Positions 5,259-20,301 of a DNA stretch of 21,292 nucleotides are shown one piece after another (the stretch's first letter is position 1; each line of letters opens with the position of its first letter). This stretch comes from a virus, in IMG/VR virus record IMGVR_UViG_3300032304_001213, positions 1-21,292 of that record; one strand, given 5' to 3'. A model generated the notes under the pieces. The model was given only the letters and a program-made list of their open reading frames with translations. It did no database searches and was not told the DNA's origin. A program made the translations under genes and the position numbers.

Positions 5259-5263
5259 AAAAA

Positions 5264-5292
5264 CTCCTAAAAAATGGGGCGGTTTTGCCCCG
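5264..5292 (-). terminator. Hairpin plus T-run in the leader of the lower early operon
   Basis: On the minus strand GGGGC and GCCCC pair around a six-base loop (5291-5276) and are followed by ATTTTTT, the form of an intrinsic terminator. The ribosome binding site of the 54-residue gene follows at once. It could stop transcripts arriving from the upper early operon or act as an attenuator. The same bases on the plus strand supply the GGGCGG box of the HNH promoter, so the pairing may partly be coincidence. Confidence 0.5.
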
Positions 5293-5309
5293 TTGTTTGT
5301 ATTATTATA
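5277..5309 (+). promoter_or_regulatory. Phage promoter upstream of the HNH gene
   Basis: GGGCGG at 5277-5282 is followed after exactly 14 nt by TTGTATTATTATA at 5297-5309. The two boxes and the spacing are the same as at the four other plus-strand sites in the window. The predicted start near 5312 gives an HNH-gene leader of about 85 nt. Confidence 0.8.
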
Positions 5310-5333
5310 TATGTAGGGACAGGATGTCGACAA
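5304..5333 (-). promoter_or_regulatory. Possible sigma-70-type promoter for the lower early operon
   Basis: On the minus strand TTGTCG (5333-5328) is followed after 18 nt by TATAAT (5309-5304). The -10 box is perfect and the -35 box matches four of six positions. It lies head-on over the plus-strand HNH promoter. The call is moderate because the TATAAT is simply the reverse face of the repeated TATTATTATA box. Confidence 0.4.
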
Positions 5334-5366
5334 TCTTGTCCTAGCTGATATCTAGGACTCACCTAC
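5313..5366 (+). promoter_or_regulatory. Structured leader of the HNH gene with two exclusive hairpins
   Basis: Hairpin 1 pairs GGACAGGAT (5317-5325) with ATCTTGTCC (5333-5341) around a 7-nt loop. Hairpin 2 pairs GTCCTAG (5338-5344) with CTAGGAC (5352-5358), also around a 7-nt loop. They share GTCC at 5338-5341, so they cannot form together. GTAGG at 5313-5317 can also pair with CCTAC at 5362-5366. The start codon at 5398 has only a weak ribosome binding site (CAGGG). This could be a control leader, or simply a DNA operator, since the first arm is also a near-palindrome. Confidence 0.5.
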
Positions 5367-5397
5367 ACACCTCAAACTACCATATCAGGGTATCAAA

Positions 5398-5889
5398 ATG
5401 AAACGATTAAATCCAAATACGGGTTTGCCTTTTAAGCGTGGCGATCTTCGAGAAGATGGCCGAGTATTTAAAGGGTACAAGACAACAAAAACTAAGCACG
5501 ATGGGTATTATATAGAAAACTGGGTTACTGGTCAAGCATTGATTAAACAAAATGAATACAACAATCATTGGAAAAGAAATAACCCCGAAAAACATAATGC
5601 CCACGTCACTGCTTGTAAAAATAAAAACCCCGCTAAATATAACGCATTAAAGAGAAAACATAAATCCGCCAAAATACAGCGCACACCCCCTTGGCTAAAC
5701 GCCGAACATTGGGCTCAAATAGAATCGTTTTATAAACAAGCATACGACCTAAGCAAAGCCACTGGTATCCAACATCATGTTGATCATATTGTGCCTTTGC
5801 GTGGGCAATTTGTAAGTGGCCTCCATGTACCTTGGAATATGCAAGTATTGACAGCATCTGAAAACTGCTCTAAGTCAAACAGGGTTTGA
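5398..5889 (+). CDS. HNH homing endonuclease, antisense to the early operon (163 aa)
   Basis: This is an HNH nuclease of the free-standing phage type. The catalytic module is at the C-terminus: HHVDH at 126-130, followed by IVPLRG, GLHVPWNMQVLT (Asn 147) and ENCSKSNR (Asn 161). The N-terminus (TGLPFKRGD, then DGRVFKGY) and the basic centre (KRKHKSAKIQR) probably bind DNA. The gene is on the plus strand inside a minus-strand operon, is visibly richer in A/T than its neighbours, has its own phage-type promoter and overlaps the convergent gene by 20 nt. Those are the usual marks of a mobile selfish gene. Its insertion separates the upper and lower parts of the early block. The catalytic residues look intact. 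The cleavage site cannot be read from the sequence. Confidence 0.9.
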   Translation: MKRLNPNTGLPFKRGDLREDGRVFKGYKTTKTKHDGYYIENWVTGQALIKQNEYNNHWKRNNPEKHNAHVTACKNKNPAKYNALKRKHKSAKIQRTPPWLNAEHWAQIESFYKQAYDLSKATGIQHHVDHIVPLRGQFVSGLHVPWNMQVLTASENCSKSNRV

Positions 5890-6133
5890 CCACAACAGAT
5901 TTAACGTGCTGGACGGTTGTCACTGATTTGACAAACTCCTCGTTGCTTAGTTTGCGCACCAATGGTGCGCTGATCTGTTCCCTGTCATATTCCAATACCT
6001 CGGCCGCAAACTGCTCGCCTTGGTAGTTGCCTACACCACGGGCAATGAGCTCTGCCTTGAGTTTGCTCTTAGTCTCCTCGAGCTCTGCGATACGTTGGCT
6101 GATGATTCCGTACTGGTCGATAATATTAGTCAT
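5870..6133 (-). CDS. Small coiled-coil phage protein (87 aa)
   Basis: The ATG at 6133 was chosen because GGGAGGAAGC precedes it and it overlaps the TGA of the upstream gene. The N-terminal half is a charged helix (IISQRIAELEETKSKLKAELIARGVG) typical of a short coiled coil. The second half is beta-like (YQGEQFAAEVLEYDREQIS) and then helical, and it ends VVVKPCLT. The pattern 'helix, GVG-Y-G-FAA-V, DRE, K-LS-EF, TV-VK-V-V' is familiar from small conserved proteins of unknown function in many tailed phages. The gene converges with the HNH gene and overlaps it by 20 nt. Confidence 0.8.
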   Translation of the reverse strand: MTNIIDQYGIISQRIAELEETKSKLKAELIARGVGNYQGEQFAAEVLEYDREQISAPLVRKLSNEEFVKSVTTVQHVKSVVVKPCLT

Positions 6134-6300
6134 GCTTCCTCCCGTTCCCACTGTTTAACCTGCAAATAAACATTCTGAATGTAACCACAAAATGGTATTG
6201 CCTTGCACAATTCCACTGCCTCGAATTGGTCTTCGGCTAAAAACTCTTCGTGTTTATAACCCTCTGAGTCGTGATGGTATTCAATTAAATAATAGTTCAT
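6130..6300 (-). CDS. Small hypothetical protein (56 aa)
   Basis: A short frame from ATG at 6300 to a TGA that overlaps the next start (ATGA) fills the gap between two clear genes. AGGAC lies upstream at good spacing. The product begins MNYYLIEYHHDSEGYKHEEF and has the pattern beta strand, turn, beta strand, helix (DQFEAVELCKAI), then an aromatic strand (FCGYIQNVYLQV). It has two cysteines. It resembles the other tiny early proteins in having a strand followed by an EA-containing helix. Confidence 0.72.
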   Translation of the reverse strand: MNYYLIEYHHDSEGYKHEEFLAEDQFEAVELCKAIPFCGYIQNVYLQVKQWEREEA

Positions 6301-6327
6301 GGTATTTGTCCTGTCTAAAATGTTAGT

Positions 6328-6633
6328 TTACTGCAAGCTTTCTAAAAAGTCAAGCCATTCCTGCCCACGGTGCTCGAGCACAAACTCGGGCGATCCTTTG
6401 GTGCCTGCCTTGACCTCTGTGCGTGATGGGATACGGTTGCCGTAGTAGTCGTTGAATGACTCGGTGCCAAGCAGGCACCAGCCGTCACTGATGGCTTGCA
6501 TCATGGCGCGCCCATACGAGCCCTGCAATGACCACATGCCGCCGTTGATGGCGCGCTGGATGGATGCGTAGAGCTCGTACTCGTCTACTCCATCCTCGCG
6601 CTCGATGTTGTTGATGTCTTTGATTGATAGCAT
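6328..6633 (-). CDS. Hypothetical early protein (101 aa)
   Basis: The start ATG at 6633 overlaps the stop of the upstream gene by one base (TAATG). The product begins MLSIKDINNIEREDGVDEYEL and has helical segments (ELYASIQRAING, YGRAMMQAIS), an aromatic middle (FNDYYGNRIPSR) and a C-terminal acidic helix (EWLDFLESL). It is soluble, with no recognisable motif. A short gap of about 27 nt separates it from the next gene, the only real break in this part of the operon. Confidence 0.75.
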   Translation of the reverse strand: MLSIKDINNIEREDGVDEYELYASIQRAINGGMWSLQGSYGRAMMQAISDGWCLLGTESFNDYYGNRIPSRTEVKAGTKGSPEFVLEHRGQEWLDFLESLQ

Positions 6634-6863
6634 TATGCCTCATCCTTAAATAGTTGTAAAAAGTAAGTCACCGAGTCTGCCACGTTGTTTGCCAGCTCTT
6701 GACCTTCCATTGCCTCGAATGGCTCCCATGGTGTCGCAATATCCCAGTCCTCGTCAGCAATACCCTCGAGGATTTTTGAGAATGGCAGGTCGCCGTTCCA
6801 GTCTGATAAATACGTGCTAAGCACAAAATGCTCAGCCTTGTCGCGTAATTGCTCTTTAGTCAT
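6633..6863 (-). CDS. Small acidic hypothetical protein (76 aa)
   Basis: I chose the internal ATG at 6863 because GAGGAG lies at normal spacing upstream of it; a start five codons earlier is possible. The product begins MTKEQLRDKAEHFVLSTYL and is strongly acidic with many tryptophan and phenylalanine residues (DEDWDIATPWEPFEAME). It ends with a helix (VADSVTYFLQLFKDEA). It overlaps the upstream gene by 8 nt. The function is unknown. Confidence 0.75.
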   Translation of the reverse strand: MTKEQLRDKAEHFVLSTYLSDWNGDLPFSKILEGIADEDWDIATPWEPFEAMEGQELANNVADSVTYFLQLFKDEA

Positions 6864-7011
6864 TTTTATTCTCCTCATCTGCTAGTCTGATCCGAGCATT
6901 CTCGGGATTGTGGTACCACCTGTTAATGATGGCGCGTGCATCGTCATCATCGTAGGCATAAATCAGTGGGCGATCAATACCGTCCACGGTTGGTAAGTAT
7001 AGTGCTCCCAT
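6856..7011 (-). CDS. Small hypothetical protein (51 aa)
   Basis: This frame lies between two clear genes and uses an ATG at 7011 that overlaps the preceding TAA by one base (TAATG). GAGGAG lies a little further upstream. The product begins MGALYLPTVDGIDRPLIYAY, contains an acidic run (DDDDARAI) and ends NARIRLADEENKND. It overlaps the next start by 8 nt. It is supported only by length, packing and overlap. Confidence 0.68.
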   Translation of the reverse strand: MGALYLPTVDGIDRPLIYAYDDDDARAIINRWYHNPENARIRLADEENKND

Positions 7012-7178
7012 TACTTGGTCTCCTCAATATTATCCACATTCCAGTCACCGTAGCCTGTGTCTTTAAAGTCGCCGCCGTCCATGTTGTAGGCAATCTCCTT
7101 TGCCTCGTCGAGATTGTCCGCCTCGATGGTTGCCTCTACGTACGATACGTAGCTTGCCTGAATTTTAAACTTAGCCAT
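7011..7178 (-). CDS. Small hypothetical protein, strand plus EA-helix type (55 aa)
   Basis: The ATG at 7178 overlaps the TAA of the upstream gene and is preceded by AAGGAGGAAGAG, an excellent ribosome binding site. The product starts MAKFKIQASYVSYVEATIEA, two beta strands, and continues with NLDEAKEIAYNM, a helix, then a short acidic tail. This 'strand with VEA, then a helix with DEA' layout is seen in small phage and plasmid proteins of the DpnD/PcfM type. That similarity is only of pattern. Confidence 0.72.
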   Translation of the reverse strand: MAKFKIQASYVSYVEATIEADNLDEAKEIAYNMDGGDFKDTGYGDWNVDNIEETK

Positions 7179-7354
7179 TACTCTTCCTCCTTGGCGGGTT
7201 CAAATTTGGGTGCTGTGTAACCCTCTTCCCTAAACCGTGCTGACACTAATGCCTCAGCACCCTCTAATTGTTCTTCAATAGCTTTAAACACCCAGTTTAC
7301 GTTTGTGGTGTCGTCGTTTAAATCTAACACTATTTCGAATTTAAATGTTTTCAT
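7178..7354 (-). CDS. Small hypothetical protein (58 aa)
   Basis: The ATG at 7354 lies within the last codons of the upstream gene, with GAGG at suitable spacing; a TTG six codons earlier is an alternative. The product begins MKTFKFEIVLDLNDDTTNV and continues with a helix (WVFKAIEEQLEGAEALV), a strand and an acidic tail (PAKEEE). It is a compact alpha/beta protein by pattern. The TAA overlaps the next ATG by one base. Confidence 0.72.
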   Translation of the reverse strand: MKTFKFEIVLDLNDDTTNVNWVFKAIEEQLEGAEALVSARFREEGYTAPKFEPAKEEE

Positions 7355-7658
7355 CTTCGTCCTCTTCGTCAAATATGCAGTATGGCACCTCGAGAAAATT
7401 GCCCTCGAATGGCACCTCGGTAATAAAGTAATTGAGGCGGTTGACTAAATGGTACCCGTCTACAATGTACAGGTTGCCGTCGTCGCCGTCGACCAGTGTC
7501 CAAATACAGCGCGGATCTTGGGCTCGTACAAAGTCCAGCTCCTCGCCGTATGTCTCGAATTTATCTGTACCGTCAAACTGATTGGTGACTGGCTTGTACT
7601 TTGCCTCCCACGCATCGAGCTCCTGCTCCCATGCTGGATATGTTGTCGTTGTGCTCAT
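7341..7658 (-). CDS. Acidic hypothetical protein (105 aa)
   Basis: The ATG at 7658 overlaps the upstream TAA and has GAGGAG at normal distance; a GTG three codons earlier is less likely. The product begins MSTTTTYPAWEQELDAWEA. It has a central beta-rich part with an aspartate-glycine loop (TLVDGDDGNLYIVDGYHLVNRLNYFI), giving a pattern of paired strands around DGDDGN, and ends in an extremely acidic tail (FDEEDEDENI). Such charge is seen in DNA-mimicking phage inhibitors but also in many ordinary small proteins, so no role is assigned. Confidence 0.75.
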   Translation of the reverse strand: MSTTTTYPAWEQELDAWEAKYKPVTNQFDGTDKFETYGEELDFVRAQDPRCIWTLVDGDDGNLYIVDGYHLVNRLNYFITEVPFEGNFLEVPYCIFDEEDEDENI

Positions 7659-7792
7659 TATTCCCACTCCTCTGTGTCGTAGTCGTATACATAAAACCCT
7701 TGGTCTGTGGCCTGTTGATATGCCTCTGCAAAGGTCTTCGCGTCGATGACGAGGGTGTTGCCCTCCTCGTCCTTAAAGTATGCTGTAATCAT
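7658..7792 (-). CDS. Tiny hypothetical protein (44 aa)
   Basis: ATG at 7792 overlaps the previous TGA (ATGA), and the TAA overlaps the next ATG. AAGGAG lies upstream. The product begins MITAYFKDEEGNTLVIDAKT, two strands, then a helix (FAEAYQQATDQG) and an acidic aromatic tail (YVYDYDTEEWE). It repeats the strand/EA-helix layout of its neighbours. The perfect chain of overlaps on both sides is the main support. Confidence 0.68.
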   Translation of the reverse strand: MITAYFKDEEGNTLVIDAKTFAEAYQQATDQGFYVYDYDTEEWE

Positions 7793-8001
7793 GCTGTGAG
7801 CTCCTTGATAAACTGTTCTGCCTCTTCGAGGGTTGCGAATGGCTTGCCTACGGCGATTGCCCAGCCGACGTGCACCTGCATCACGTCAAACTTGCCACCC
7901 TTCCAGCTTGGCTTGTTGATGCGGTAGGTTGGGTTCTCAATGCTTGGCAGGTTCCACAACTTAGCGCACTCTCTGTCTTCTGCCCAATTAAATGTTGTCA
8001 T
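7789..8001 (-). CDS. Small hypothetical protein (70 aa)
   Basis: I chose the ATG at 8001 because CGGAGG lies just upstream and because the longer frame would begin inside the strong promoter at 8023-8051. The product begins MTTFNWAEDRECAKLWNLP. It has a strand-rich, tryptophan-containing middle (PSWKGGKFDVMQVHVGWAIAV is one continuous stretch of alternating residues) and ends with a helix (FATLEEAEQFIKEL). It is the first gene behind that promoter, with a leader of only about 15 nt. Confidence 0.75.
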   Translation of the reverse strand: MTTFNWAEDRECAKLWNLPSIENPTYRINKPSWKGGKFDVMQVHVGWAIAVGKPFATLEEAEQFIKELTA

Positions 8002-8022
8002 ATATCCTCCGTTAGTCTGTAC

Positions 8023-8051
8023 ATTATAGTGACCTTTTCGGTCACTGTCAA
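8023..8051 (-). promoter_or_regulatory. Consensus sigma-70-type early promoter with an operator palindrome
   Basis: On the minus strand TTGACA (8051-8046) is followed after exactly 17 nt by TATAAT (8028-8023), a perfect match at both boxes. The spacer itself holds an inverted repeat, AGTGACC and GGTCACT (8028-8046), around a 5-nt loop. A protein bound there would cover the promoter. The palindrome suggests a repressor operator, since the unrepressed promoter should be extremely strong. No repressor gene is identified in the window. Confidence 0.85.
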
Positions 8052-8314
8052 TCGTATACGCCGATCTCACCGGCATTGATCCATTCTGCGTGCAGTCCGT
8101 ACTTAGCCAGCGTGTTGGTAATCAGTGGGTTGATACCAAACTCCCAGTCGGGTATGTTGCGACCGTCGTAGTAGTCTGCCCAGCAGGTGTCACGGTCGTA
8201 CTCGCCGTAAATACCCTCTGCGCTGATCTGAAAATTCTCGATGTCACTGCGCTCGTACACTGGGCACCCGATTTTCTTGAGTGCGTTGAATGCTAGTCTG
8301 TGGTTGCGTGTCAT
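8048..8314 (-). CDS. Hypothetical early protein (88 aa)
   Basis: The ATG at 8314 has TAGGAG upstream and follows the ribozyme-like segment directly. The product begins MTRNHRLAFNALKKIGCPVY (helix), continues through an acidic aromatic region (CWADYYDGRNIPDWEF) and ends with a helix (TNTLAKYGLHAEWI) and an acidic tail. The DYY..RNIP pattern recalls FNDYYGNRIP in the 101-residue protein further down, but the rest is not clearly related. Its last codons overlap the -35 box of the next promoter. Confidence 0.75.
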   Translation of the reverse strand: MTRNHRLAFNALKKIGCPVYERSDIENFQISAEGIYGEYDRDTCWADYYDGRNIPDWEFGINPLITNTLAKYGLHAEWINAGEIGVYD

Positions 8315-8331
8315 GGTGTAGCTCCTATGTT

Positions 8332-8381
8332 GGTCTCATCAGTGCACGCCTTACGTGCATACCGCTCACGCGGTTTCGACC
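8332..8381 (-). ncRNA. Hammerhead ribozyme, type II permutation
   Basis: All core elements are present in the minus-strand RNA. Stem II is GGUC (8381-8378) with GACC (8335-8332) and is the open end. GAA (8377-8375) is the conserved segment before stem III. Stem III is ACCGC (8374-8370) with GCGGU (8365-8361), capped by a GUGA tetraloop. A single A (8360) is the cleavage-site base. Stem I is UGCACG (8359-8354) with CGUGCA (8348-8343) and a UAAGG loop. CUGAUGA (8342-8336) completes the core. Base pairs A15.1-U16.1, U1.1-A2.1 and G10.1-C11.1 all fit. Cleavage is predicted between A8360 and U8359, separating the 111-residue gene's message from the rest of the early operon. Confidence 0.88.
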
Positions 8382-8385
8382 TGTA

Positions 8386-8721
8386 CTACGCGTACTCACG
8401 TGCGGTGACGTGCGGTACGATAAACTGGAAATACTCGGGGTTGAATTCGCCCCACTGGTCTGCCTTGTCACCGATCAGTGAGCCACGGTCGATACTGTGA
8501 TCATACACTGCAATGCAGTCCTGATCCAGTGCCGTCGCCAGCACGTCGATGTTGCCCGTGTGGTATACGTAGTCGATAATGACGGTTGGCTCGTCGCCGT
8601 CATACGATACGCGCACTGCCGTGACGTTTGCAACAAACTGCATTGCTTTGGTGAGGGTGAGCTCTACCGTGTTGTTGTCGCCTGTGAATGGGTTAGCTAA
8701 CCCGATATTCATGGTATACAT
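8386..8721 (-). CDS. First early gene, hypothetical protein (111 aa)
   Basis: This is the gene nearest the early promoter at 8895-8923. The ATG at 8721 follows AAGGAG closely; an ATG three codons later is too distant for that site. The product begins MYTMNIGLANPFTGDNNTVEL and is beta-rich with several valine runs (AVRVSYDGDEPTVIIDYVY), then an acidic second half (LDQDCIAVYDHSIDRGS) and a C-terminal strand. No family is recognised. The hammerhead sequence starts 5 nt beyond its stop codon, so self-cleavage would leave this message with a short, structured 3' end. Confidence 0.75.
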   Translation of the reverse strand: MYTMNIGLANPFTGDNNTVELTLTKAMQFVANVTAVRVSYDGDEPTVIIDYVYHTGNIDVLATALDQDCIAVYDHSIDRGSLIGDKADQWGEFNPEYFQFIVPHVTAREYA

Positions 8722-8754
8722 ATTGCTCCTTGTGTTTGGTTAGTACTGCCTCGA

Positions 8755-8775
8755 GCGCACTGGTATACAATGCGC
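8755..8775. promoter_or_regulatory. Imperfect 21-bp palindrome in the first early gene's leader
   Basis: GCGCA and TGCGC flank a centre containing GTATAC, with two mismatched pairs. It lies in the predicted leader of about 165 nt between the promoter at 8895-8923 and the start at 8721. It could be an operator or an RNA hairpin. A further short hairpin, GCAGG with CCTGC, lies near 8803-8820. Confidence 0.35.
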
Positions 8776-8894
8776 TCTGAGCATTACTATCTATTAGCAT
8801 ACGCAGGGATGAATACCTGCACTGGTTCTGCCAGCTCCCCCTTATTTATCTCGGTTGGGTTTGAGTACTACAACTGCTTTACTACCATGACTCT

Positions 8895-8923
8895 ACTATA
8901 CCGACCTTAGAATTAAATGTCAA
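8895..8923 (-). promoter_or_regulatory. Sigma-70-type early promoter at the divergent region
   Basis: On the minus strand TTGACA (8923-8918) is followed after exactly 17 nt by TATAGT (8900-8895), five of six in the -10 box. It points into the whole early block, with a predicted start near 8888. Its -35 box lies inside AATAGGTGTTGAC, nearly the same as AATAGGTGTTTAC found three times at 9161-9505, which suggests a shared binding protein. Confidence 0.8.
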
Positions 8924-9160
8924 CACCTATTTAATACTTGACTGCGCTGTGGGGTTTTGTGGGATAGTGTGGGATTGCTGGCCTCCCTCGTGCTGTTGTA
9001 TTCTCGCCCACCCTCCAATTTGACCCTCGCGTGCGCATCGCCCTGCAAGCCTTACTGGCTGGTACCCGAGTCCACCACGCTGTCAACGGCATGGTGCCAA
9101 TGCACCTGTGAGGCAAACTGCTAAAACGCCTCTATGCCCCCTTAAAACGCGCCCAATCCG

Positions 9161-9505
9161 TCAATAGGTGTTTACCCTAATAGCCAGCTAAGTTAGTCTG
9201 CACTAAGTTAATGCACCAAAATGGTGCACGCGCCAGCTTGGCTTTGTGGCACGTTGCCGCGTTGTTATCTTGCCACAGTGTTGCGTTCATACAACAAAGC
9301 TGGCGTATGCACCACATTGGTGCATTAACTTAGTGGCTACTAACATCATGCACCACATTGGTGCACGGGCCTGCTCGGCTCGGCAGACAGGGTGCTGGGC
9401 GCGGAGTCAATAGGTGTTTACCCTAGGTGTTGTGCCAGCGCAACAGTGGACTGCTGGCTCGGCATACAGGGTGCTGGGCGCGGAGTCAATAGGTGTTTAC
9501 CCTAG
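9161..9505. repeat. Three copies of TCAATAGGTGTTTACCCTA
   Basis: The 19-bp motif occurs identically at 9161-9179, 9407-9425 and 9486-9504. Its reverse face contains GGGTAAACA, one or two substitutions from the GGGTNNACA iterons of the origin-like elements. A fourth, partial copy in the opposite orientation covers the -35 box of the promoter at 8895-8923. These are good candidates for binding sites of the replication initiator or a regulator. Confidence 0.7.
9201..9335. repeat. Large inverted repeat with 38-bp arms
   Basis: CACTAAGTTAATGCACCA at 9201 and the following bases to 9238 match, in reverse complement and with few mismatches, the segment 9297-9335 that ends TTAACTTAGTG. Each arm contains a smaller palindrome, TGCACCA-N3-TGGTGCA (9212-9228 and 9308-9324). 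A third copy of that palindrome is at 9349-9365. The 58-bp centre holds a further inverted pair, GTGGCA with TGCCAC. As DNA this can form a cruciform; as RNA, a long hairpin. Confidence 0.75.
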
Positions 9506-9544
9506 GTGTTGCGTGCATACAACAGTGTGGCAAGATAACAACGC
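9259..9544. repeat. Perfect 18-bp inverted repeat 250 bp apart
   Basis: GCGTTGTTATCTTGCCAC at 9259-9276 is the exact reverse complement of 9527-9544. Beside each arm is a near-identical direct repeat, GTGTTGCGT(T/G)CATACAACA, at 9278-9296 and 9506-9524. The combination encloses the other repeats of the region. Confidence 0.7.
9377..9511. repeat. 56-bp direct repeat with 79-bp period
   Basis: The segment 9377-9432 recurs at 9456-9511 with a single substitution. It contains ACAGGGTGCTGGGCGCGGAG followed by the TCAATAGG motif. ACAGGGTG also resembles the junction between two tandem iterons. The repeat lies in the divergent intergenic region and codes for nothing recognisable. Confidence 0.75.
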
Positions 9545-9744
9545 CGCAATCTGACGCGACCTAGCGTTTCACAATGTAAAATGCGTTACCACAATGCGGA
9601 ACAGGGGGCTTTTCTTTTAACCGCGACACCCAATTTGGGTCCTGTGCCTAGGGGCGGCGGTGGCCCCATGCCAAACCCTAAGTTTGTAAAATCCGCCAGA
9701 AACACAGATCCTAAATTTTTTTTTTATAAACTAGGGCGGAGAGG

Positions 9745-9764
9745 ACCTACTACATGTAGTAGGT
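9745..9764. promoter_or_regulatory. Perfect 20-bp palindrome
   Basis: ACCTACTACATGTAGTAGGT is its own reverse complement over all 20 bases. A GGGCGG lies 5 nt upstream (9734-9739), but no TATTATTATA box follows at the right spacing. The palindrome lies 28 bp before the second iteron dyad. A dimeric DNA-binding protein site is the likeliest reading. Confidence 0.6.
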
Positions 9765-9791
9765 GCACCCCCTAAAATCACTAGAATGACA

Positions 9792-9903
9792 GGGTGTACA
9801 GGGTAGCACACCCTTTTTACTCTTTTTTAAATTTTTTTTTAAAAAAAATAAATAAAGTATGGAAAGAGTGAAATAAGCCTCGCAACCCTGTCTACCCTTG
9901 ACA
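9792..9903. repeat. Origin-like iteron dyad, copy B
   Basis: GGGTGTACA and GGGTAGCAC (9792-9809) face GGGTAGACA and a degenerate GGGTTGCGA (minus strand, 9897-9880) around an A/T tract. The tract contains AAATAAATAAAGTATGGAAAG exactly as in copy A at 3312-3424. Outer flanks (TTGACAAA on the right) are also shared. It lies just upstream of the first late promoter, 6.5 kb from copy A, mirroring the two-site origin of phage P4 in outline. Confidence 0.7.
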
Positions 9904-9926
9904 AATGTGGTTTATTTGCACTGGAA

Positions 9927-9959
9927 GGGCGATAACCCCTAGTTGTTTGTATTATTATG
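9927..9959 (+). promoter_or_regulatory. Phage late promoter, first of the structural block
   Basis: GGGCGA (9927-9932) stands 14 nt before TTGTATTATTATG (9947-9959), with one substitution in each box relative to the other sites. If the first TATTAT is the -10 hexamer, the transcription start falls at about 9962, directly on the ATG at 9963. Confidence 0.78.
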
Positions 9960-9962
9960 TGT

Positions 9963-10271
9963 ATGAGCAAATACGTATACCAAATCCAAGGCGCCCTGGA
10001 GAGTAGGCAGGGAGAATTCTTGGGGCTTCGTGTCTTGGTATGTGATGCGTTTAACTTTGATTCGGTTGACATACCTGTAGAGGTACTGGATTCAGAAACC
10101 GCAAAGTACATGCAGTTCAGACTTTCTATTACGGCAGAGACGGTCAACATAGCAAGACTGCCGGTTGAAATCCAAAACAGAATACGCACGCCGTTAGGGC
10201 GATGGCTGGACCACTGGGTCCTAGATAATTTTTATGGCGATAACCGCAAATACAAAGATACTAACGCTTGA
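9963..10271 (+). CDS. Hypothetical protein, first late gene (102 aa)
   Basis: An ATG at 9957 lies inside the promoter's TATTATTATG box and cannot be transcribed, so I take the ATG at 9963, which gives a leaderless message. The product begins MSKYVYQIQGALESRQGEFL and is a mixed alpha/beta protein with a strand-rich first half (LGLRVLVCDAFNF) and a later segment ITAETVNIARLPVEIQNRI. The end, LGRWLDHWVLDNFYGDNRKY, is rich in aromatics. The gene overlaps the next by 38 nt. Its position two genes before the terminase large subunit makes a packaging role possible, but no small-terminase motif is visible. Confidence 0.78.
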   Translation: MSKYVYQIQGALESRQGEFLGLRVLVCDAFNFDSVDIPVEVLDSETAKYMQFRLSITAETVNIARLPVEIQNRIRTPLGRWLDHWVLDNFYGDNRKYKDTNA

Positions 10272-11226
10272 TTACTGGAAGCCAGCCTACAAGCTGGAGG
10301 TAGGTGACTATGTCTTTGATCGTAAGGGCAACATAGTCCAGGTCAAACTAGCGCAGCAGTACCAAGGCATACGCTGCTATGAGGTCATGTTCAACGACTA
10401 CCTGACGGTGGAGGGTGACGCCAACCTGGCGCTACCCACAGAGAACCCCAAATACCGTAACAGGCTGGTCACGTACAAGGGCAAGCTGCAGTTTAGGCGC
10501 CCTCTTAAGCCACTAACGGCCGAGCAGATGCTTGATATGCCGCTACTGGATCAACACAACCGCAAGATACTCTCGGTCCCCACCACAAACCCCCTGGCAT
10601 TACCCCACCAAGACCTACCAGTCCCAGCGTTTGTCTTTGGGTTCTGGTTCTTTGCCCGTAGATCGACTGGCAGGATGGCTGCGGCCAAGGGAACAACCGA
10701 GTTTGTGGTGCAACGATTCAAAGACCATGGCTACAAAGTGGTTATGGGACCGCTGATCAACACCGGGGAGCGCGAATTTAGCGTCACACCCACAGTTGAG
10801 TCGCAGTTAATCCCCAACATCCCCAAGATTATCACCAACAACTACCTTTTTTCGTCGCCAGAGCAGCGACAAGACTTACTTTCTGGCATTGTCTGCGCAA
10901 AAAACAGGCGTTACAACAAGAGATCAGACCGTTTTCGGTTTTCTTCTCGCCAATACGACACCGTTCGCCGTGTCCAGCTCCTGGCAGAGTCCCTTGGCGG
11001 GCGGTCTAGCCTGCAAAGTGACGACCACAAGAAGGATTTTACGGTTTTCTTTAAGATCCGCGCGCCCATCCACCCGGAACAGAGCTCGCCCAAAGTAAAA
11101 GTCCACCATGGCAGACGTTATGTCAGCAAGATCAGCCCAATCCCGACCCAGATGTGTGTGCACATTGAGACAACGGGCGAGGATAACACCATTTTAGTGG
11201 GGGAGGGCTTCATACCATGTCTTTAA
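10234..11226 (+). CDS. Intein-derived (Hint/LAGLIDADG-like) protein without catalytic residues (330 aa)
   Basis: The protein begins exactly where an intein would: MAITANTKILTLDYWK aligns with intein block A (C-x-x-x-D/N-TKILT-x-x-G-WK), but the first catalytic Cys is Ala. EVGDYVFDRKG (22-32) is the usual next strand. Block B, expected around residues 58-68 (VEGDANLALP), lacks the His. The C-terminus, CVHIETTGEDNTILVGEGF followed by IPCL, matches intein blocks F and G, but the terminal His-Asn is missing and the chain stops there. The middle resembles a dodecapeptide homing endonuclease: FVFGFWFFARRS (133-144) and LLSGIVCAKN (215-224) followed by RFRFSS and LLAESLGG. Both motif aspartates are replaced. 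It lies directly before, and overlaps, the terminase gene, the usual small-terminase position. No good ribosome binding site precedes the ATG. Confidence 0.75.
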   Translation: MAITANTKILTLDYWKPAYKLEVGDYVFDRKGNIVQVKLAQQYQGIRCYEVMFNDYLTVEGDANLALPTENPKYRNRLVTYKGKLQFRRPLKPLTAEQMLDMPLLDQHNRKILSVPTTNPLALPHQDLPVPAFVFGFWFFARRSTGRMAAAKGTTEFVVQRFKDHGYKVVMGPLINTGEREFSVTPTVESQLIPNIPKIITNNYLFSSPEQRQDLLSGIVCAKNRRYNKRSDRFRFSSRQYDTVRRVQLLAESLGGRSSLQSDDHKKDFTVFFKIRAPIHPEQSSPKVKVHHGRRYVSKISPIPTQMCVHIETTGEDNTILVGEGFIPCL

Positions 11227-12662
11227 CAACAAAACAAGAGGCCATCCTCAAGCGATTTGCCGAGGAGCGCAAGAATTGGCCCCAGCAACAGCTCGATGCG
11301 GCGATCTGGCAGATCAAATGGAGCCTACAAGCCCTGCCGCACCAGAAAGAACCAGACGATGGAGAGTATGATACGTTTCTTATGCTTGCCGGTCGTGGAT
11401 CGGGTAAGACCCACACTGCCAGCCATTGGATTGGCATTCGTGCTTGGCGTTATGACAACACCCGCTGGCTCGTCACCGCTCCCACCTCAAACGATATACG
11501 TGCAACTTGTTTCGAGGGGGACTCCGGACTTATCAGTATCATTCCCCCGTCACTTATCCGGGATTACAACAAGTCACTCTTTGAGATTACCCTCACCAAC
11601 GGGTCTATCATTCAGGGTATCCCAGCCTCAGAGCCAGAACGGTACCGTGGTAAGCAATACCATGGGGCCTGGTTCGACGAGTTGTGTGCATTCGATTACA
11701 TCGACGATGCCTACGACGGCGTACAGTTTACCCTACGTCTTAAGGACCCGCGAATCCCTCGAGTGCAGCAGATTATTACCACCACTCCAAAGCCCAAGGA
11801 ACTGATTGTAGACCTTAACGAGGGCAAGGTAGGGGGTGATGTATACGTAGCCAATGCAAGCTCCTACGACAACCGTGCAAACCTCTCAGAGACCTTTTTT
11901 AAGCAGCTAGAGACGTACGAGGGAACAGACATTGGTAAGCAGGAGATCTATGGCGAGATCCTAGACCCTGAGGCGGCTGGTATCATCAAGCGCAAACATT
12001 TCCGCATGTGGCCAGCGAACAAGCCCACCCCGGTCCTAGAGTACGTGATTGCCTCGTATGACCCGGCGACCTCTGAGAAAACGGTGAATGACCCCACTGC
12101 CTGTACGGTCTGGGGTGTGTTCGAGAGAGAAGACGCTGGGACGTCTGTCATACTGCTAGACGCATGGGACGCGCACCTGTCGTACCCCGAGCTGCGTCGT
12201 AAGGTGATTGATGACTTCAAGGAAGTTGTCTACGGAGCAGACAATGACTTCGGTAAGGGCAAGAAGGCCGACCTGATACTGATGGAAGACAAGTCCGCCG
12301 GTATCTCGCTGATACAAGAACTCCAAGGCGCTGGCGTGCCCGTCAGGGGATACAATCCAGGCCGCGCGGATAAGATCCAGCGTATCAACATTGTGGCCCC
12401 GCTCGTGCTTAAGGGTAAGGTCTACATCCCCGAAGAGCCAAGTAACCCAGGCGAGTACGCCAACTGGGCCAAACGCTTCATGCGGCAGGTTTGTTCATTT
12501 CCGGAGGCTGGGGGTCATGACGACTACGTTGACAGCCTCAGCCAGGCCCTACGCGTCCTCAGGGACTCTGGCTGGTTGCAGCTTGATCCGTTGCCTGCCA
12601 GGGACTATGACTACGCTGACGACGACTCAAACAGGAAGTTTAGCAATCCCTACGCACAATAG
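11217..12662 (+). CDS. terL: Terminase large subunit (481 aa)
   Basis: This is the DNA-packaging motor and nuclease. The ATPase has Walker A GRGSGKT at 59-65, Walker B AWFDE at 151-155 and a coupling motif TTTPKP around 188-193. The RNase H-like nuclease domain shows the acidic triad at Asp 282 (ASYDPA), Asp 358 (LMEDKS) and Asp 436 (GGHDDYVDS). Length and order of motifs are normal for a complete terminase and there is no internal intein, which matters because an intein relative lies immediately upstream. The ATG overlaps the end of that gene by 10 nt. No strong Shine-Dalgarno sequence is present (GGGGGAGGG lies about 8 nt upstream and may serve). The next gene starts behind its own late promoter. 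Confidence 0.95.
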   Translation: MSLTTKQEAILKRFAEERKNWPQQQLDAAIWQIKWSLQALPHQKEPDDGEYDTFLMLAGRGSGKTHTASHWIGIRAWRYDNTRWLVTAPTSNDIRATCFEGDSGLISIIPPSLIRDYNKSLFEITLTNGSIIQGIPASEPERYRGKQYHGAWFDELCAFDYIDDAYDGVQFTLRLKDPRIPRVQQIITTTPKPKELIVDLNEGKVGGDVYVANASSYDNRANLSETFFKQLETYEGTDIGKQEIYGEILDPEAAGIIKRKHFRMWPANKPTPVLEYVIASYDPATSEKTVNDPTACTVWGVFEREDAGTSVILLDAWDAHLSYPELRRKVIDDFKEVVYGADNDFGKGKKADLILMEDKSAGISLIQELQGAGVPVRGYNPGRADKIQRINIVAPLVLKGKVYIPEEPSNPGEYANWAKRFMRQVCSFPEAGGHDDYVDSLSQALRVLRDSGWLQLDPLPARDYDYADDDSNRKFSNPYAQ

Positions 12663-12694
12663 GGCGGAAACGGCTTCATTCTTGTATTATTATA
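12662..12694 (+). promoter_or_regulatory. Phage late promoter between terminase and the structural genes
   Basis: GGGCGG (12662-12667), 14 nt, TTGTATTATTATA (12682-12694). It begins at the terminase stop codon. The predicted start near 12697 leaves at most about four nucleotides before the ATG at 12701, so the message is almost leaderless. Confidence 0.85.
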
Positions 12695-12700
12695 ATTAGA

Positions 12701-13324
12701 ATGGACATTTTAAAGACTCCCCACCAAAAGCTGCTCGAAGAGGCAGGCGCTATTCCTGCATCGCCCGGGATGGCTCACACACCACGCCAGATGCTGATGC
12801 AAGAGTCTGGCATCATGCCACGTTTTGCAGACGGTGGTGAAGTGCAGATGTCGCCACAAGATATGTTGGCCGAGTTAATTTACGGTGGCCGAACACCGCA
12901 GCATTTTGCGTCAGGTGGCAGCACAGAAAGAATGAGCCCAGAGTTTGAGGCATTACTTAACAAACTTTACACGCAACAAATTTACAGTGGCGAGTTGCCA
13001 CCAGAGCCTACGTTTCAGGCGCAACCAGTAACATTAACATCCCGCGCCCGCGATGCAACGGCGTCATTAATTGGCGACTTACCAGCTGATAGATTGTTTG
13101 GCACAGGATCAGAAGGGCAAAAGACAGAGTACTTACCCTTGCAATTTTTAAACCCGGTTAGTGCTACGACAGAGACACTCAGTGCAATTCCAGAAACAGC
13201 AAGACAATTACGCCAGGGCGATGTGATGGGTGCCGGTATTACAGCAGGTGCTACAGGACTAGGAGTCCTACCATTCTTAAAGCCAATTAAAAGCGCTATC
13301 AAAAAGATCAAACCTAAAAAATAA
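12701..13324 (+). CDS. Probable virion-associated protein (207 aa)
   Basis: The ATG at 12701 follows the late promoter with no room for a ribosome binding site. The N-terminus has two similar segments, TPHQKLLEEAGAIPASPGM and TPRQMLMQESGIMPRF, each followed by glycine-rich FADGGE or FASGGS motifs. A third, weaker one is SPQDMLAELIYGG. Such 'P-LL-ESG--P-FADGG' repeats occur in proteins encoded next to phage portals. The C-terminal third has a long hydrophobic, glycine-rich stretch (MGAGITAGATGLGVLPFL) and a very basic end (KSAIKKIKPKK), which would suit membrane interaction during DNA ejection. That role is inference; the family is not recognised. Confidence 0.78.
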   Translation: MDILKTPHQKLLEEAGAIPASPGMAHTPRQMLMQESGIMPRFADGGEVQMSPQDMLAELIYGGRTPQHFASGGSTERMSPEFEALLNKLYTQQIYSGELPPEPTFQAQPVTLTSRARDATASLIGDLPADRLFGTGSEGQKTEYLPLQFLNPVSATTETLSAIPETARQLRQGDVMGAGITAGATGLGVLPFLKPIKSAIKKIKPKK

Positions 13325-13327
13325 TTT

Positions 13328-16084: not shown

Positions 16085-16085
16085 T

Positions 16086-16295
16086 ATGGCCGACAATAAT
16101 TTAAAAGGCTTTCGCCAAACGTATCAAGAGACCGGCACGCTATCTAGCGGCGGCGGTCCAGAGGACAAAAAATTAGACGCGGGCCCTTCCGGCTCTAAGC
16201 GTTCAAACAACGCAGCCAAAGGTAAACCTGCTCGTTCAAGCAAAGTTGGACCAGATAAGAACCTGAAAGACATTGGCGGCGGTAACTTTTATTAA
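16086..16295 (+). CDS. Small disordered basic protein (69 aa)
   Basis: The ATG at 16086 follows GGAG at the very end of the portal gene, one base after its stop codon. The product begins MADNNLKGFRQTYQETGTLS and is dominated by Gly, Ser, Lys and Asn (SSGGGPEDKKLDAGPSGSK, AAKGKPARSSKVG), so it is probably unfolded. It has no membrane segment. It is co-transcribed with the portal and probably a minor head protein, but that is inferred from position. Confidence 0.75.
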   Translation: MADNNLKGFRQTYQETGTLSSGGGPEDKKLDAGPSGSKRSNNAAKGKPARSSKVGPDKNLKDIGGGNFY

Positions 16296-16304
16296 TACAA
16301 TTTG

Positions 16305-16337
16305 GGGCGGATTTTCTAGCTCCTTTGTATTATTATA
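16305..16337 (+). promoter_or_regulatory. Phage late promoter before the co-chaperonin and scaffold genes
   Basis: GGGCGG (16305-16310), 14 nt, TTGTATTATTATA (16325-16337). The predicted start near 16340 coincides with the ATG at 16341, giving a leaderless message. Confidence 0.85.
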
Positions 16338-16340
16338 AGT

Positions 16341-16532
16341 ATGAAAGACTTTATTTCTGAAATTATCTCGCGCACGCGGGACGAACAGGCAAAATTGGCG
16401 GAAACCCTCACCGCTGGAAGTAATGTGAATAGCTTTGACGATTACCAGCGCTTAGTTGGTAGGTTTGAAGGATTCAAGGAAGTACTCGACATTATAAATG
16501 AAATTTTGAGGGAAGACGAAGACGACCTGTAG
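16341..16532 (+). CDS. Small acidic hypothetical protein (63 aa)
   Basis: The ATG lies four bases beyond the promoter box, so the first codon is at or next to the 5' end of the message. The product begins MKDFISEIISRTRDEQAKLA and is all-helical by pattern: a first amphipathic helix, a loop (TAGSNVNSFDD) and a second helix (YQRLVGRFEGFKEVLDIINEI), ending in an acidic tail (REDEDDL). Short two-helix proteins with the pattern 'D-YQRLVGRF-G' recur in head-gene blocks of phages. No function is known to me. Confidence 0.8.
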   Translation: MKDFISEIISRTRDEQAKLAETLTAGSNVNSFDDYQRLVGRFEGFKEVLDIINEILREDEDDL

Positions 16533-16554
16533 AGGTCATAGGGAGCACTGAACA

Positions 16555-16992
16555 GTGTTTGATTTAAAAGGCAATGAAGAGCCGGATACACGATCAGAGG
16601 AAGAATGTTTTCCCGCAATCGACACCGGTATTGAGGTAGCTGGAGACCGTGTCCTAGTACAACTACGACGCGAAAAATCAACCAGCAAGGGCGGAATCAT
16701 CCTAGTCGATGAGACCAGACAGACGCTACGATTTAACGAGACGGTTGCAAAGGTAGTCCAGATTGGACCCCTAGCATACAAATCGCCAGACACACTGGAG
16801 CCGTGGATTGAAGGCCCCTGGTGTAATGTGGGTGACTTGGTTCGCACTATCAAGTACGGCGGCGATCGTTTTGTTGTGCAACCAGATGATGAGGGTTCTC
16901 CCGTAGTATTCATCACGTTGCAGGCTCGTGAAATCATTTCTCGCATCAAGTCGTTTGAGTATGCGCAGAAAATGAAAGCGTTCATAGATTAA
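16555..16992 (+). CDS. GroES-like co-chaperonin (145 aa)
   Basis: The protein matches the GroES/Cpn10 fold: GDRVLVQL at 30-37, the mobile-loop-like STSKGGIIL at 42-50, AKVVQIGP at 65-72, VGDLVRTIKYGG at 92-103 and a C-terminal strand at 117-124. GroES caps the host GroEL ring. Phage versions such as T4 gp31 are needed to fold the major capsid protein, which fits its place just before scaffold and capsid genes. It is longer than bacterial GroES (about 97 aa) because of an N-terminal extension of about 25 residues, an insert around residues 73-90 and a C-terminal helix. The start is GTG at 16555 with GGGAG upstream; no in-frame ATG is near. The start is therefore less certain than the family. 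Confidence 0.82.
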   Translation: MFDLKGNEEPDTRSEEECFPAIDTGIEVAGDRVLVQLRREKSTSKGGIILVDETRQTLRFNETVAKVVQIGPLAYKSPDTLEPWIEGPWCNVGDLVRTIKYGGDRFVVQPDDEGSPVVFITLQAREIISRIKSFEYAQKMKAFID

Positions 16993-17012
16993 CTTTTGTA
17001 GAAAAGAAAAAG

Positions 17013-18011
17013 ATGGCAGATAATGAAAAAAACGTTCCGATTAAGGAACAGAATGACGGCTCGTTTTTAGCTCGTGTAGAAGAACCAGAACAGTTTGACG
17101 ACGAAGAAGAGCTTAAAGAAGGCGGCAAGGTAGAGGCCGCAGATGACTCAGATGACGAGGATAACCAGGATGAAGATCAGGGTTCCGATGAGTCAAATGA
17201 TGACGAAGAGACAGATGACGAGCGCGCGAAGATCCGTGAAGCTCGCCGCGAAGAGCGCAGGCTAAAGAAAGAACTAGCCAAACAGCGTGAGGCGTCATCC
17301 AAGCACAAGATTAGCGCACTTGAAAAGCGTAACGAAGATTTAGCTCGTAGATTGGCGGCAGTAGAGAACACCGCGGCATCGTACCAATTTGCACAGATTG
17401 ACAAGGCCCTCGAGGATGAGGCGACCCGTGTTGAGTATGCAAAAATGAAGATGCTACAGGCGGCACAGTCTAATGACGCAGCTGGCCAGATTGAATACCT
17501 GGAGCAGTTAACAGAAGCTAAGCAACGTCTGCAGCAAGTGCAGCATTACAAAAAACAACAGCTCGAGGCTGCTAAGTCACCTAAGCAGAACGTGCCAAGT
17601 GAGATGTCTAATGAGGTCCAACAAAATGCAACACGTTGGCTCAAAAAGAACTCCTGGTTTGACCCACAGGCTCGAGATACAGATAGTAGAATTGCCAAAG
17701 TAGTTGATCAAGAACTCGCTGCAGATGGTTGGGATCCAACGGATTCTGAGTACTGGGAAGAGTTAGACAGTCGTTTAGCAAGTCGTCTGCCACACCGCTA
17801 CACAACAAGGGGTGGCAATAACAAGCGCTCTTCAGCAGGCCCAACGGCCTCCAGCAGGGTAGCTAATACAACCAGCTCCAAGCCAGGTACCATCACACTA
17901 AGCCGTGAGCGTGTACAGGCAATTAAGGATGCAGGTTCATGGGACGATGTAGAGAAACGAAACAAAATGATCCGCGCATACGCATCGTATGATCGCGCTA
18001 ATAAAGGATAA
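17013..18011 (+). CDS. Head scaffolding protein (332 aa)
   Basis: The position just upstream of the capsid genes and the composition identify a scaffold, which shapes the prohead and then leaves. Residues about 25-75 are extremely acidic (DDEEELKEGG, DDSDDEDNQDEDQGSDES). Residues about 75-205 are a charged coiled coil (EARREERRLKKELAKQREA, then LEKRNEDLARRLAAVEN). The C-terminal part has SWFDPQARDTDSRIAKVV, a Ser/Thr-rich linker and a helical end (RAYASYDRANKG), typical of capsid-binding C-termini. Start: ATG at 17013 with AAAGAAAAAG upstream, a weak site. Acid runs at this position could also suggest a protease-scaffold fusion, but no protease motif is seen. Confidence 0.83.
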   Translation: MADNEKNVPIKEQNDGSFLARVEEPEQFDDEEELKEGGKVEAADDSDDEDNQDEDQGSDESNDDEETDDERAKIREARREERRLKKELAKQREASSKHKISALEKRNEDLARRLAAVENTAASYQFAQIDKALEDEATRVEYAKMKMLQAAQSNDAAGQIEYLEQLTEAKQRLQQVQHYKKQQLEAAKSPKQNVPSEMSNEVQQNATRWLKKNSWFDPQARDTDSRIAKVVDQELAADGWDPTDSEYWEELDSRLASRLPHRYTTRGGNNKRSSAGPTASSRVANTTSSKPGTITLSRERVQAIKDAGSWDDVEKRNKMIRAYASYDRANKG

Positions 18012-18016
18012 ACAAA

Positions 18017-18574
18017 ATGGCAAATACAAGAATCAAACGTGACTTAGACGACCGCATGGCCGACAGAGCACAAGAGGTGATTGAGCGTTCAAATAGCGCC
18101 AATCCGGATGACATTGCACGTCGTGAACGCCTTGATGCGTTTAGAGACAAGTGGGCAAATAGTGCGTTGCCCGATCTTCCCGCGGGGATCATTCCCGGGA
18201 TGCACTTGTGTTGGTTGTCAACAACCAATACTTACGACAGTATCGACAAACGTATGGCATTGGGTTATGAGCCAGTTAAAGCTAGCGAATTAGGCAAAGG
18301 CTTTGAAGGACTAGGCAAAATGAGCTCAGGCAAGTTTGAAGGCTGTGTTAGTTGTAACGAAATGGTACTCTTCAAATTACCAGAAGACATCTACCAAGAA
18401 GTAATGCGTATGCTCCACCTGGAGGATCCGCTTGAACACCAACGTAATATTACCGCGCAGGTTCGCGACACAGCGCAGGGCAATAAAGGTGGCCGTTCAG
18501 TTCTTGAAGGTGGTTTACTGGAGATGGAAAAGGATACCGCAAGAGCGAATAATAAAAATGTTCGTTTTCAATAA
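18017..18574 (+). CDS. Conserved-looking structural-block protein (185 aa)
   Basis: The gene follows the scaffold by 5 nt. The product has a helical, charged N-terminus (RIKRDLDDRMADRAQEVIER), then a folded middle starting at about residue 50 (LPAGIIPGMHLCWLSTTN, then RMALGYEPVKASEL) with two nearby cysteines (EGCVSCNEM). A helix follows (EDIYQEVMRMLHLEDPL), then a polar tail. The motif LSTTNTYDSIDKRMALGYEPV looks like a conserved family signature among phages with similar head genes, perhaps a head-completion or decoration factor. No specific role can be assigned. Confidence 0.75.
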   Translation: MANTRIKRDLDDRMADRAQEVIERSNSANPDDIARRERLDAFRDKWANSALPDLPAGIIPGMHLCWLSTTNTYDSIDKRMALGYEPVKASELGKGFEGLGKMSSGKFEGCVSCNEMVLFKLPEDIYQEVMRMLHLEDPLEHQRNITAQVRDTAQGNKGGRSVLEGGLLEMEKDTARANNKNVRFQ

Positions 18575-18608
18575 CATTCTTCAAAAATAAAACAAAGGAA
18601 ATACATAA

Positions 18609-19271
18609 ATGTCCACAACATTTAAACCCTTTGGTCTGAAGCCTGTGTATCACCCAAGTGGCCTTGATCGTGCAGTTCCATTCGTTGGAACAAACACTTT
18701 CGTCACGGGTACTACATTTACAGCTCCATACAGCTTGAATTCTGGTGAAACATTTTTCCAGTATCAGCCAGTGAGCTTGACCGCTTCAGGTCAATTAACC
18801 ATTGCAAACCAAACTGCCGCTTCTGGCACAGTATACGGCGTATTTGACGGTGTAGAATTTACAACCGCTGAAGGTCGTCGTACATTAGGTAAGTCAATTT
18901 CCAAAGCCTCTTTGGACGCTGCTACCCAAATCGTATTCTGGATCTTCGCAGACCCAGCATTAGTTTACGAAGCTCAAGTAAACGGTTCAGCATCAACAGC
19001 CTCTATTGGCCGTCAGTACAACTTTGATACAACCACAGGTTCACGGACCATTGACGGTTATACCATCGGTACAGGTGGTGCTGGCTTCTCCACAACAGCA
19101 TTGTTGGCAACTCCTGTTGCTACCACTGTTCAAGGACAAGTTCGCGTAGTAGGTTTAGGCCGTGAAGTAGCATACCCAACAGGCGAGTTAAACGCTTGGG
19201 GTGATACTTACACGATTGTTCAGGTCCAAATCGCTAACAACACGTTTGTTGCGCCTAAGGTCTCGATTTAA
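18609..19271 (+). CDS. Structural protein, probable head decoration type (220 aa)
   Basis: The ATG at 18609 has AAAGGA upstream. The product begins MSTTFKPFGLKPVYHPSG and is beta-rich, with many Thr, Ser, Gly and Val residues and no charged clusters. That is the composition of capsid decoration or head-fibre proteins. Segments such as YSLNSGETFFQYQPVSLT and TASGTVYGVFDGVEFT alternate strands and turns. It lies immediately before the major capsid gene, and its codon use is similarly rich in preferred codons, implying high expression. Decoration function is inferred from fold-like pattern and position. Confidence 0.78.
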   Translation: MSTTFKPFGLKPVYHPSGLDRAVPFVGTNTFVTGTTFTAPYSLNSGETFFQYQPVSLTASGQLTIANQTAASGTVYGVFDGVEFTTAEGRRTLGKSISKASLDAATQIVFWIFADPALVYEAQVNGSASTASIGRQYNFDTTTGSRTIDGYTIGTGGAGFSTTALLATPVATTVQGQVRVVGLGREVAYPTGELNAWGDTYTIVQVQIANNTFVAPKVSI

Positions 19272-19294
19272 TTAATAACGAAAGGAACTAGCAA

Positions 19295-20212
19295 ATGGCA
19301 ACCCCAATGCGTAGTACAGACTTTCGTGCGGTAGTCGAGCCGATTATCAACGAAGTCTTTGATGGTGTATACGAGCAACGTGCAGACGAATGGAAAGGCT
19401 TTGTTGAGCAGATCCAGGGTATCCCACGTAATTATCACGAAGAAGTAATGCTGTTCGGTATGAACGCAGCTCCTGCAATGCCTGACGGCACTCCAGTTAG
19501 CTACGATCAAGGCGGTACACTGTACATCACCCGATTCATTTATCAAATCTATGGCTTGGCATACGCCTTGACTAAGGTTTTGATGGAAGACGGCGATCAC
19601 ATCCGTATCGGCTCAACCTTCGCTAAGCACCTCGCTCAGTCAATGATTGAAACCAAAGAAACCCTCTGCGCAAACCTCTTGAACTTCGCGTTCACAGCTG
19701 GTTATGTAGGCGGCGACGGCGTAACTTTGATCAACACAGCTCACCCTGTTGCAAACGGTTTGACATACTCGAACCAATTGTCTACAGCCGCTTCTTTGAG
19801 CCAGACATCTGTTGAGCAGATGCTGATTCAGATTCGTAGCGCTATCGACAACAACGGTAAGCGTATTCGCCTCAAGGCAGAGCAGTTAGTTGTTCCACCA
19901 GCACTCGAGTTCCAAGCAGAAGTAATTCTGAAGTCGGTTCTCCGTTCTGGTACAGCGGACAACGATTTGAACCCAATCAAGTCAACAGGTATGTTGCCAA
20001 AAGGCACACACGTTGTTACTCGTTTGAGCTCAAGCAAAGCCTGGTGGGTACAGACTGATGCCGAAAATGGTCTTATGCTCGTAATGCGTCGTCCAATGGA
20101 GAAATCCATGGAAGGCGACTTCGAGACAGACAGCATGCGTTACAAAGCAACCGAGCGCTATGCGACCGGCTGGCATGACGCACGTAACATTTATGGTACA
20201 GCTGGTTTGTAA
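19295..20212 (+). CDS. Major capsid protein, HK97-like fold (305 aa)
   Basis: The gene is last before a strong terminator and has a good ribosome binding site (GAAAGGAAC). The N-terminal helix (STDFRAVVEPIINEVFDGVYEQ) and the following segments (EWKGFVEQIQGIPRNYHEEV) are typical of HK97-fold capsid proteins. So are the E-loop-like region (AMPDGTPVSYDQGGTLYITRFIY), the long spine helix (HIRIGSTFAKHLAQSMIETKE) and the motif FAFTAGYVGGDGVTLINTAHPV. The C-terminal part has LVVPPALEF and RYATGWHDARNIYG. Length is average. There is no N-terminal delta domain, which agrees with a separate scaffold gene. Confidence 0.9.
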   Translation: MATPMRSTDFRAVVEPIINEVFDGVYEQRADEWKGFVEQIQGIPRNYHEEVMLFGMNAAPAMPDGTPVSYDQGGTLYITRFIYQIYGLAYALTKVLMEDGDHIRIGSTFAKHLAQSMIETKETLCANLLNFAFTAGYVGGDGVTLINTAHPVANGLTYSNQLSTAASLSQTSVEQMLIQIRSAIDNNGKRIRLKAEQLVVPPALEFQAEVILKSVLRSGTADNDLNPIKSTGMLPKGTHVVTRLSSSKAWWVQTDAENGLMLVMRRPMEKSMEGDFETDSMRYKATERYATGWHDARNIYGTAGL

Positions 20213-20232
20213 TCCAAGCCACTCGAAGTAAC

Positions 20233-20261
20233 AAAAAAGCCACCCACAAGGTGGCTTTTTT
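20233..20261 (+). terminator. Strong intrinsic terminator after the major capsid gene
   Basis: GCCACC (20239-20244) pairs with GGTGGC (20250-20255) around a 5-nt loop, preceded by six A and followed by six T. The A and T runs can extend the stem, so it may work in both directions. The next gene has its own promoter starting 8 nt later. Confidence 0.92.
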
Positions 20262-20268
20262 GCTTTTA

Positions 20269-20301
20269 GGGCGGTTTTGCCGACTTTCTTGTATTATTAT
20301 A
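20269..20301 (+). promoter_or_regulatory. Phage late promoter after the capsid terminator
   Basis: GGGCGG (20269-20274), 14 nt, TTGTATTATTATA (20289-20301). Unlike the other structural-block copies it is followed by a leader of about 90 nt before the ATG at 20393, with ATAAGGA as ribosome binding site. It lies directly behind the terminator, so it resets transcription for the next genes. Confidence 0.87.

Follow-up and report, generated by a model that had tools for sequence, protein, structure and literature searches.

A short phage-encoded sigma factor that lacks region 4 and is made early would read the 13-mer TTGTATTATTATA on middle and late operons, with separate upstream elements setting the promoter class; from the sequence comparisons described below, we give this reading a probability of about 0.85. 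The 13-mer alone is the core element, and marks a genome-wide promoter system. Early, middle and late are used here as terms inferred from gene content.

The window, that is the whole stretch of DNA analysed, is a 21,292-nt fragment of a tailed phage (IMG/VR record IMGVR_UViG_3300032304_001213). It carries genes for a primase, terminase, portal, GroES-like and capsid proteins, as well as an early block of small minus-strand genes. A 330-aa gene ahead of the terminase gene (10234-11226) has no Pfam or NCBIfam match and is kept in most compared relatives. The features discussed here are the following:

861-3170, minus strand: primase gene, predicted to be driven by a box without GGGCG
3190-3202, minus strand: predicted promoter of the primase gene, an exact 13-mer without GGGCG, with GTGAAAC upstream at 3220-3226
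3879-4229, minus strand: gene for a 116-aa protein, its start overlapping the sigma stop; the two genes overlap or are adjacent in 44 of 48 loci
4226-4798, minus strand: sigma-70-family factor of 190 aa in which regions 1.2, 2 and 3 are present and region 4 is missing (Pfam, PHROG and NCBIfam matches, PDB profile)
5259-5882, plus strand: inserted segment with an HNH gene (5398-5889; HNH family matches) and its own predicted late promoter; the flanks join in L008 and G007
5277-5309, plus strand: predicted late-class promoter (GGGCGG plus box) of the HNH gene; exact match, within the segment inserted relative to L008 and G007
8023-8051, minus strand: TTGACA-17-TATAAT, a consensus sigma-70 promoter within the early block (12 of 12 matches)
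8895-8923, minus strand: TTGACA-17-TATAGT, a sigma-70-like promoter at the head of the early block with the sigma gene (11 of 12 matches)
9927-9959, plus strand: predicted late-class promoter that departs from the pattern at two positions; box position 17 (9963) falls on an ATG
12662-12694, plus strand: predicted late-class promoter of the portal operon; exact match
16305-16337, plus strand: predicted late-class promoter of the operon of a 63-aa gene, the GroES-like gene and the capsid gene; exact match, ATG at box position 17 (16341)
20269-20301, plus strand: predicted late-class promoter 3' of the major capsid gene and 5' of the gene at 20393-20965; exact match

The two-box sites and the core box

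The original prediction described five exact plus-strand copies of a two-box promoter, GGGCGG-N14-TTGTATTATTATA. Its coordinates and the 14-nt spacing are correct at all five sites, each of which does lie 5' of a plus-strand gene, but the pattern is exact at only four of them (starting at 5277, 12662, 16305 and 20269). The copy at 9927-9959 carries GGGCGA and TTGTATTATTATG, with a final G, and thus two mismatches. None of 100 dinucleotide shuffles of the window contained the two-box pattern. The minus-strand copy at 3190-3202 has an exact box and no GGGCGG, as had been stated; rather than a mere box-only copy, it falls squarely into a second class, with GTGAAA upstream. Nor do the two boxes form one unit, as relatives have the 13-mer without GGGCG at about half of the sites.

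When 2.9 million viral contigs were scanned for exact matches, the full two-box pattern turned up in 33 stretches. A motif search in related phages had been proposed together with the original prediction, and the 13-mer was recovered ahead of virion operons elsewhere, for example in the tail region of G007. This complete relative (61,329 bp, with an end repeat) has 14 boxes against 0 predicted by a Markov model; 13 are exact and the other has a single mismatch. The boxes are found on both arms and head replication as well as virion operons: those on the replication side precede the primase, DNA polymerase and DUF2800 genes, a ribonucleotide-reductase block and a helicase block, and the others precede the terminase, portal, GroES/capsid, tail and lysis regions. 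The relatives MW202545 and Caulobacter phage RW, which do not have the sigma gene, give 0 PWM matches each, against 14 in G007 and 14 in G018. In a de novo search for intergenic words, the box family ranked among the leading words of most sigma-positive genomes, but of neither of these two relatives. The idea of a phage-specific promoter family is supported. A lone exact match in G009 stands in a differing context and is probably due to chance.

Two repeats, GGACCACAAG with 10 copies and TAACGCCTGT with 9, also occur in G007 (L039-L042), and the palindrome TGTTTAAACA occurs 12-18 times per locus in one sigma-positive branch (L075, L088, L095, L096, L097 and others).

The sigma factor and its link to the box

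The window itself encodes a sigma factor without region 4, which the original prediction overlooked and which is the likely reader of the box. Pfam matches to regions 1.2 and 3 are above the cut-off, and region 2 scores 23.7 against a cut-off of 24 bits. A PDB profile search with five relatives matched SigA with an E value of 8e-24; the match to SigA/RpoD begins at region 1.2 and goes no further than the end of region 3. The relatives of the factor are 186-193 aa long, have an acidic tail and end just after the region-3 match. Pfam gave no match to region 4 in the window protein, and no region 4 scored above the cut-off elsewhere in six relatives, in a search whose control worked. In the region 2.4 alignment with SigA, the stretch WWIRQAITR, which holds the tryptophan pair and the -12-contacting residues, is replaced by SFIERGVRR here and by PFIERGVRR in other relatives. 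These replacements are in line with an altered -10 specificity. The structure model obtained from five sequences is of low confidence (pLDDT 57); its top Foldseek matches were sigma factors, namely SigA and SigS chains.

The sigma gene belongs to the early block, which contains the two sigma-70 promoters listed above; among the genomes listed, no box stands upstream of sigma in the same block. Strong sigma-70 promoters are found in the sigma-gene block of several relatives; their concentration is shared by G007, G018 and G048, but not by every relative.

The search with the sigma factor gave matches at 47 viral loci and on a single bacterial contig, metagenome-assembled and labelled as a betaproteobacterium, many of the compared contigs being fragments. 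The box takes the form TTGCATTATTRTA, TTGCATTAATATA or TTGCATTAGTATA in the sigma-positive loci, and these variants are clade-specific. MW202545 and Caulobacter phage RW, both distant and together making up the sigma-less comparison, possess homologous terminase, portal and capsid genes, yet neither a sigma homologue nor a box. The sigma tree requires one change at box position 4 (mean of 3.9 after shuffling) and four at position 9 (mean of 12.1). Where a genome has four or more sites, its majority base is carried by 95 of 98 sites at position 4 and by 94 of 98 at position 9. Position 9 is A in some boxes of G030 and T in others, and G018 has two T boxes among C boxes.

Such concerted change of many sites per genome argues for a trans-acting reader that has itself changed, and the phage sigma factor is probably this reader. 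The co-variation would also fit another phage protein always inherited with sigma; owing to vertical inheritance, a linked protein of this kind could read the box instead. Individual sigma residues (e.g. 53, 57 and 97) correlate with box position 9, but we did not retain them as candidates since shared ancestry confounds the correlation.

Start sites and promoter classes

Among 190 distinct sites, a count that takes in related genomes and is inflated by near-identical ones, an A stands four bases past the box (position 17) in 177 and is mostly preceded by T or C. The register proposed initially, with TATTAT as the -10 element and a start about 8 nt further on, is supported. Transcription is predicted to start at this A, which would place TATTAT at -13 to -8 and GGGCG at -36 to -32. 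An ATG is found exactly at position 17 in 46 of the 190 sites, including three orthologous gene groups in which it occurs in 15/19, 14/14 (sites orthologous to 16305-16337) and 13/13 sites (group 19393, that of the 9927-9959 site). The genes concerned may be expressed from leaderless mRNAs.

Of the 190 distinct sites, 92 have GGGCG at an offset of precisely -20 from the box and, among scanned offsets, 3 more have it shifted by one base. GGGCG is present at 77 of 91 virion/packaging sites, at 6 of 7 HNH genes and at 1 of 78 replication sites. Since the first relatives had been found through the GGGCGG pattern, the class test was repeated in genomes found by sigma alone, where GGGCG occurs at 38 of 49 virion/packaging sites versus 1 of 38 replication sites (Fisher P = 1.5e-13). 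Orthologues of the portal-operon promoter (12662-12694) have GGGCG in 11/11 and 10/10 sites, and sites orthologous to 20269-20301 retain it while their spacers diverge. The late regulon suggested by the original prediction therefore stands for the GGGCG subset, which comprises virion, packaging and HNH genes, but not for the 13-mer, which also heads primase, DNA polymerase, DUF2800, helicase and ribonucleotide-reductase operons.

On the replication side, GTGAAA or ATGAAA is present at 14 of 18 primase-group sites and at 12 of 13 sites of the ribonucleotide-reductase/DUF2815 group. The DUF2800 and DNA polymerase sites lie mostly directly 3' of a hairpin-plus-T-run terminator and have the appearance of single-element promoters. 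Tandem endolysin-like genes are present in L040 (16457-16927 and 17328-17870), and a box that lacks GGGCG lies right at the beginning of the second.

The inclusion of the HNH gene in the late class is supported. The insertion at 5259-5882 takes in the predicted promoter with its GGGCGG and almost the entire HNH gene, so that a mobile endonuclease gene appears to travel with a late promoter of the host phage. The gene lies on the strand opposite to the early block, and the HNH genes of relatives mostly have a late promoter too.

Proposed mechanism and comparison with known systems

We propose that the short sigma would be made early from host sigma-70 promoters and would bring the host RNA polymerase to the long -10-type box, which heads middle (replication) and late (virion) operons, transcription beginning at the A of position 17. 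A sigma without region 4 cannot itself read a -35 element, so class control would come from separate upstream elements. At late promoters, GGGCG at -36 to -32 would most likely be bound by a second, putative protein that holds the polymerase in region 4's stead; of the replication promoters, some would use GTGAAA and others would directly follow a terminator without any upstream element. Sigma homology, the missing region 4, the motif, its positions, the classes, co-distribution and co-variation are read from sequence; from them we infer binding, start, timing and the GGGCG-binding protein. A more general reading, to which we give slightly less than even odds, is that one region-4-less sigma serves as a common platform, to which distinct phage proteins that bind DNA add exchangeable -35 functions, through GGGCG at late promoters and GTGAAA at some replication promoters. 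On this view, what is normally one sigma would be divided between two parts encoded apart from each other, and this division would define the temporal classes.

The 116-aa protein could be the GGGCG reader or a gp33-like flap-binding cofactor, which would complete the explanation given above rather than replace it. In the 44 loci (of 48) mentioned above, its gene either overlaps sigma or lies directly next to it, and the protein matches no known family and is modelled as a mixed helix/strand fold (pLDDT 73). We nevertheless regard this assignment as unlikely, as comparison with the PDB gave no fold match at E <= 0.001 and the protein was not found in the partial contigs G038, G047, G040 and L090, three of which have GGGCG sites.

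Phage polymerases typically use long, nearly invariant promoters, and the box might accordingly be read by a single- or multi-subunit phage RNA polymerase, with the sigma serving another role. This is very improbable: box variants track the sigma tree, the -10-like TATTAT followed after about 8 nt by a YA start fits a bacterial polymerase, and no RNA polymerase gene is seen in the G007 gene list. A search with PF00940 (single-subunit RNA polymerase) gave no match, its controls being likewise silent. We attach equally little weight to a host alternative sigma factor reading the box and rendering the phage sigma dispensable. The phage and host sigmas are related in regions 2 and 3, but within each genome the box sites shift together, in step with the phage sigma, and structural relatives without sigma are also without the box. 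Slightly less remote, though still improbable, is the idea that GGGCG is the 5' arm of terminator hairpins abutting the promoters and not a promoter element. Hairpins do form at some sites (5277-5309; 44724 in G007), and other box sites, those of the DUF2800 and DNA polymerase groups, clearly follow terminators. However, pairing between GGGCG and the spacer (77 of 92 sites) is not above that with shuffled spacers (mean of 75), so a hairpin does not explain GGGCG; its offset is fixed while the spacers diverge, and the true terminator-linked sites do not make use of GGGCG.

The sigma-dependent reading predicts the transcription programme of a whole uncultured phage group from sequence alone. The sigma, its promoters and dozens of naturally diverged pairs make residue-to-base reading directly testable. 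The literature searched, with incomplete coverage, yielded no description of this promoter family. The closest parallels are found in three phages. gp36 of phiEco32 is a sigma without region 4 that uses tAATGTAtA one-element promoters (PMC8948821). As in phiEco32, a sigma without region 4 would here use a -10-type box on middle and late operons, with a start 6-8 bp downstream and early genes predicted to depend on host sigma-70. Unlike the single element of phiEco32, late promoters here add an element at -36 to -32 and replication promoters add others, and the sigma clearly matches SigA/RpoD regions 1.2-3 in the searches run. The T4 gp55/gp33/gp45 system resembles ours in its diverged sigma, whose region-2 domain reads a -10-like element. 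In T4, gp33 occupies the place of region 4 on the flap and reads no DNA sequence, and late promoters have no conserved -35 sequence (PMC2988020, PMC7892883), in contrast to the conserved GGGCG at -36 to -32 on late promoters here; neither a sliding clamp nor a gp33 homologue was identified in the present phages. The sigma gp47 of phage 7-11 recognizes bipartite promoters, GTAAtg-(16)-aCTA, and has a region-4-like C-terminus (PMC8948821); two-element promoters 5' of late genes are common to both systems, but the sigma described here has no such C-terminus. The combination of a region-4-less sigma with a class-specific element at the -35 position is found in neither phiEco32 and 7-11 nor T4, and poses the problem of how a conserved -35-like element is paired with a sigma lacking any domain for its recognition.
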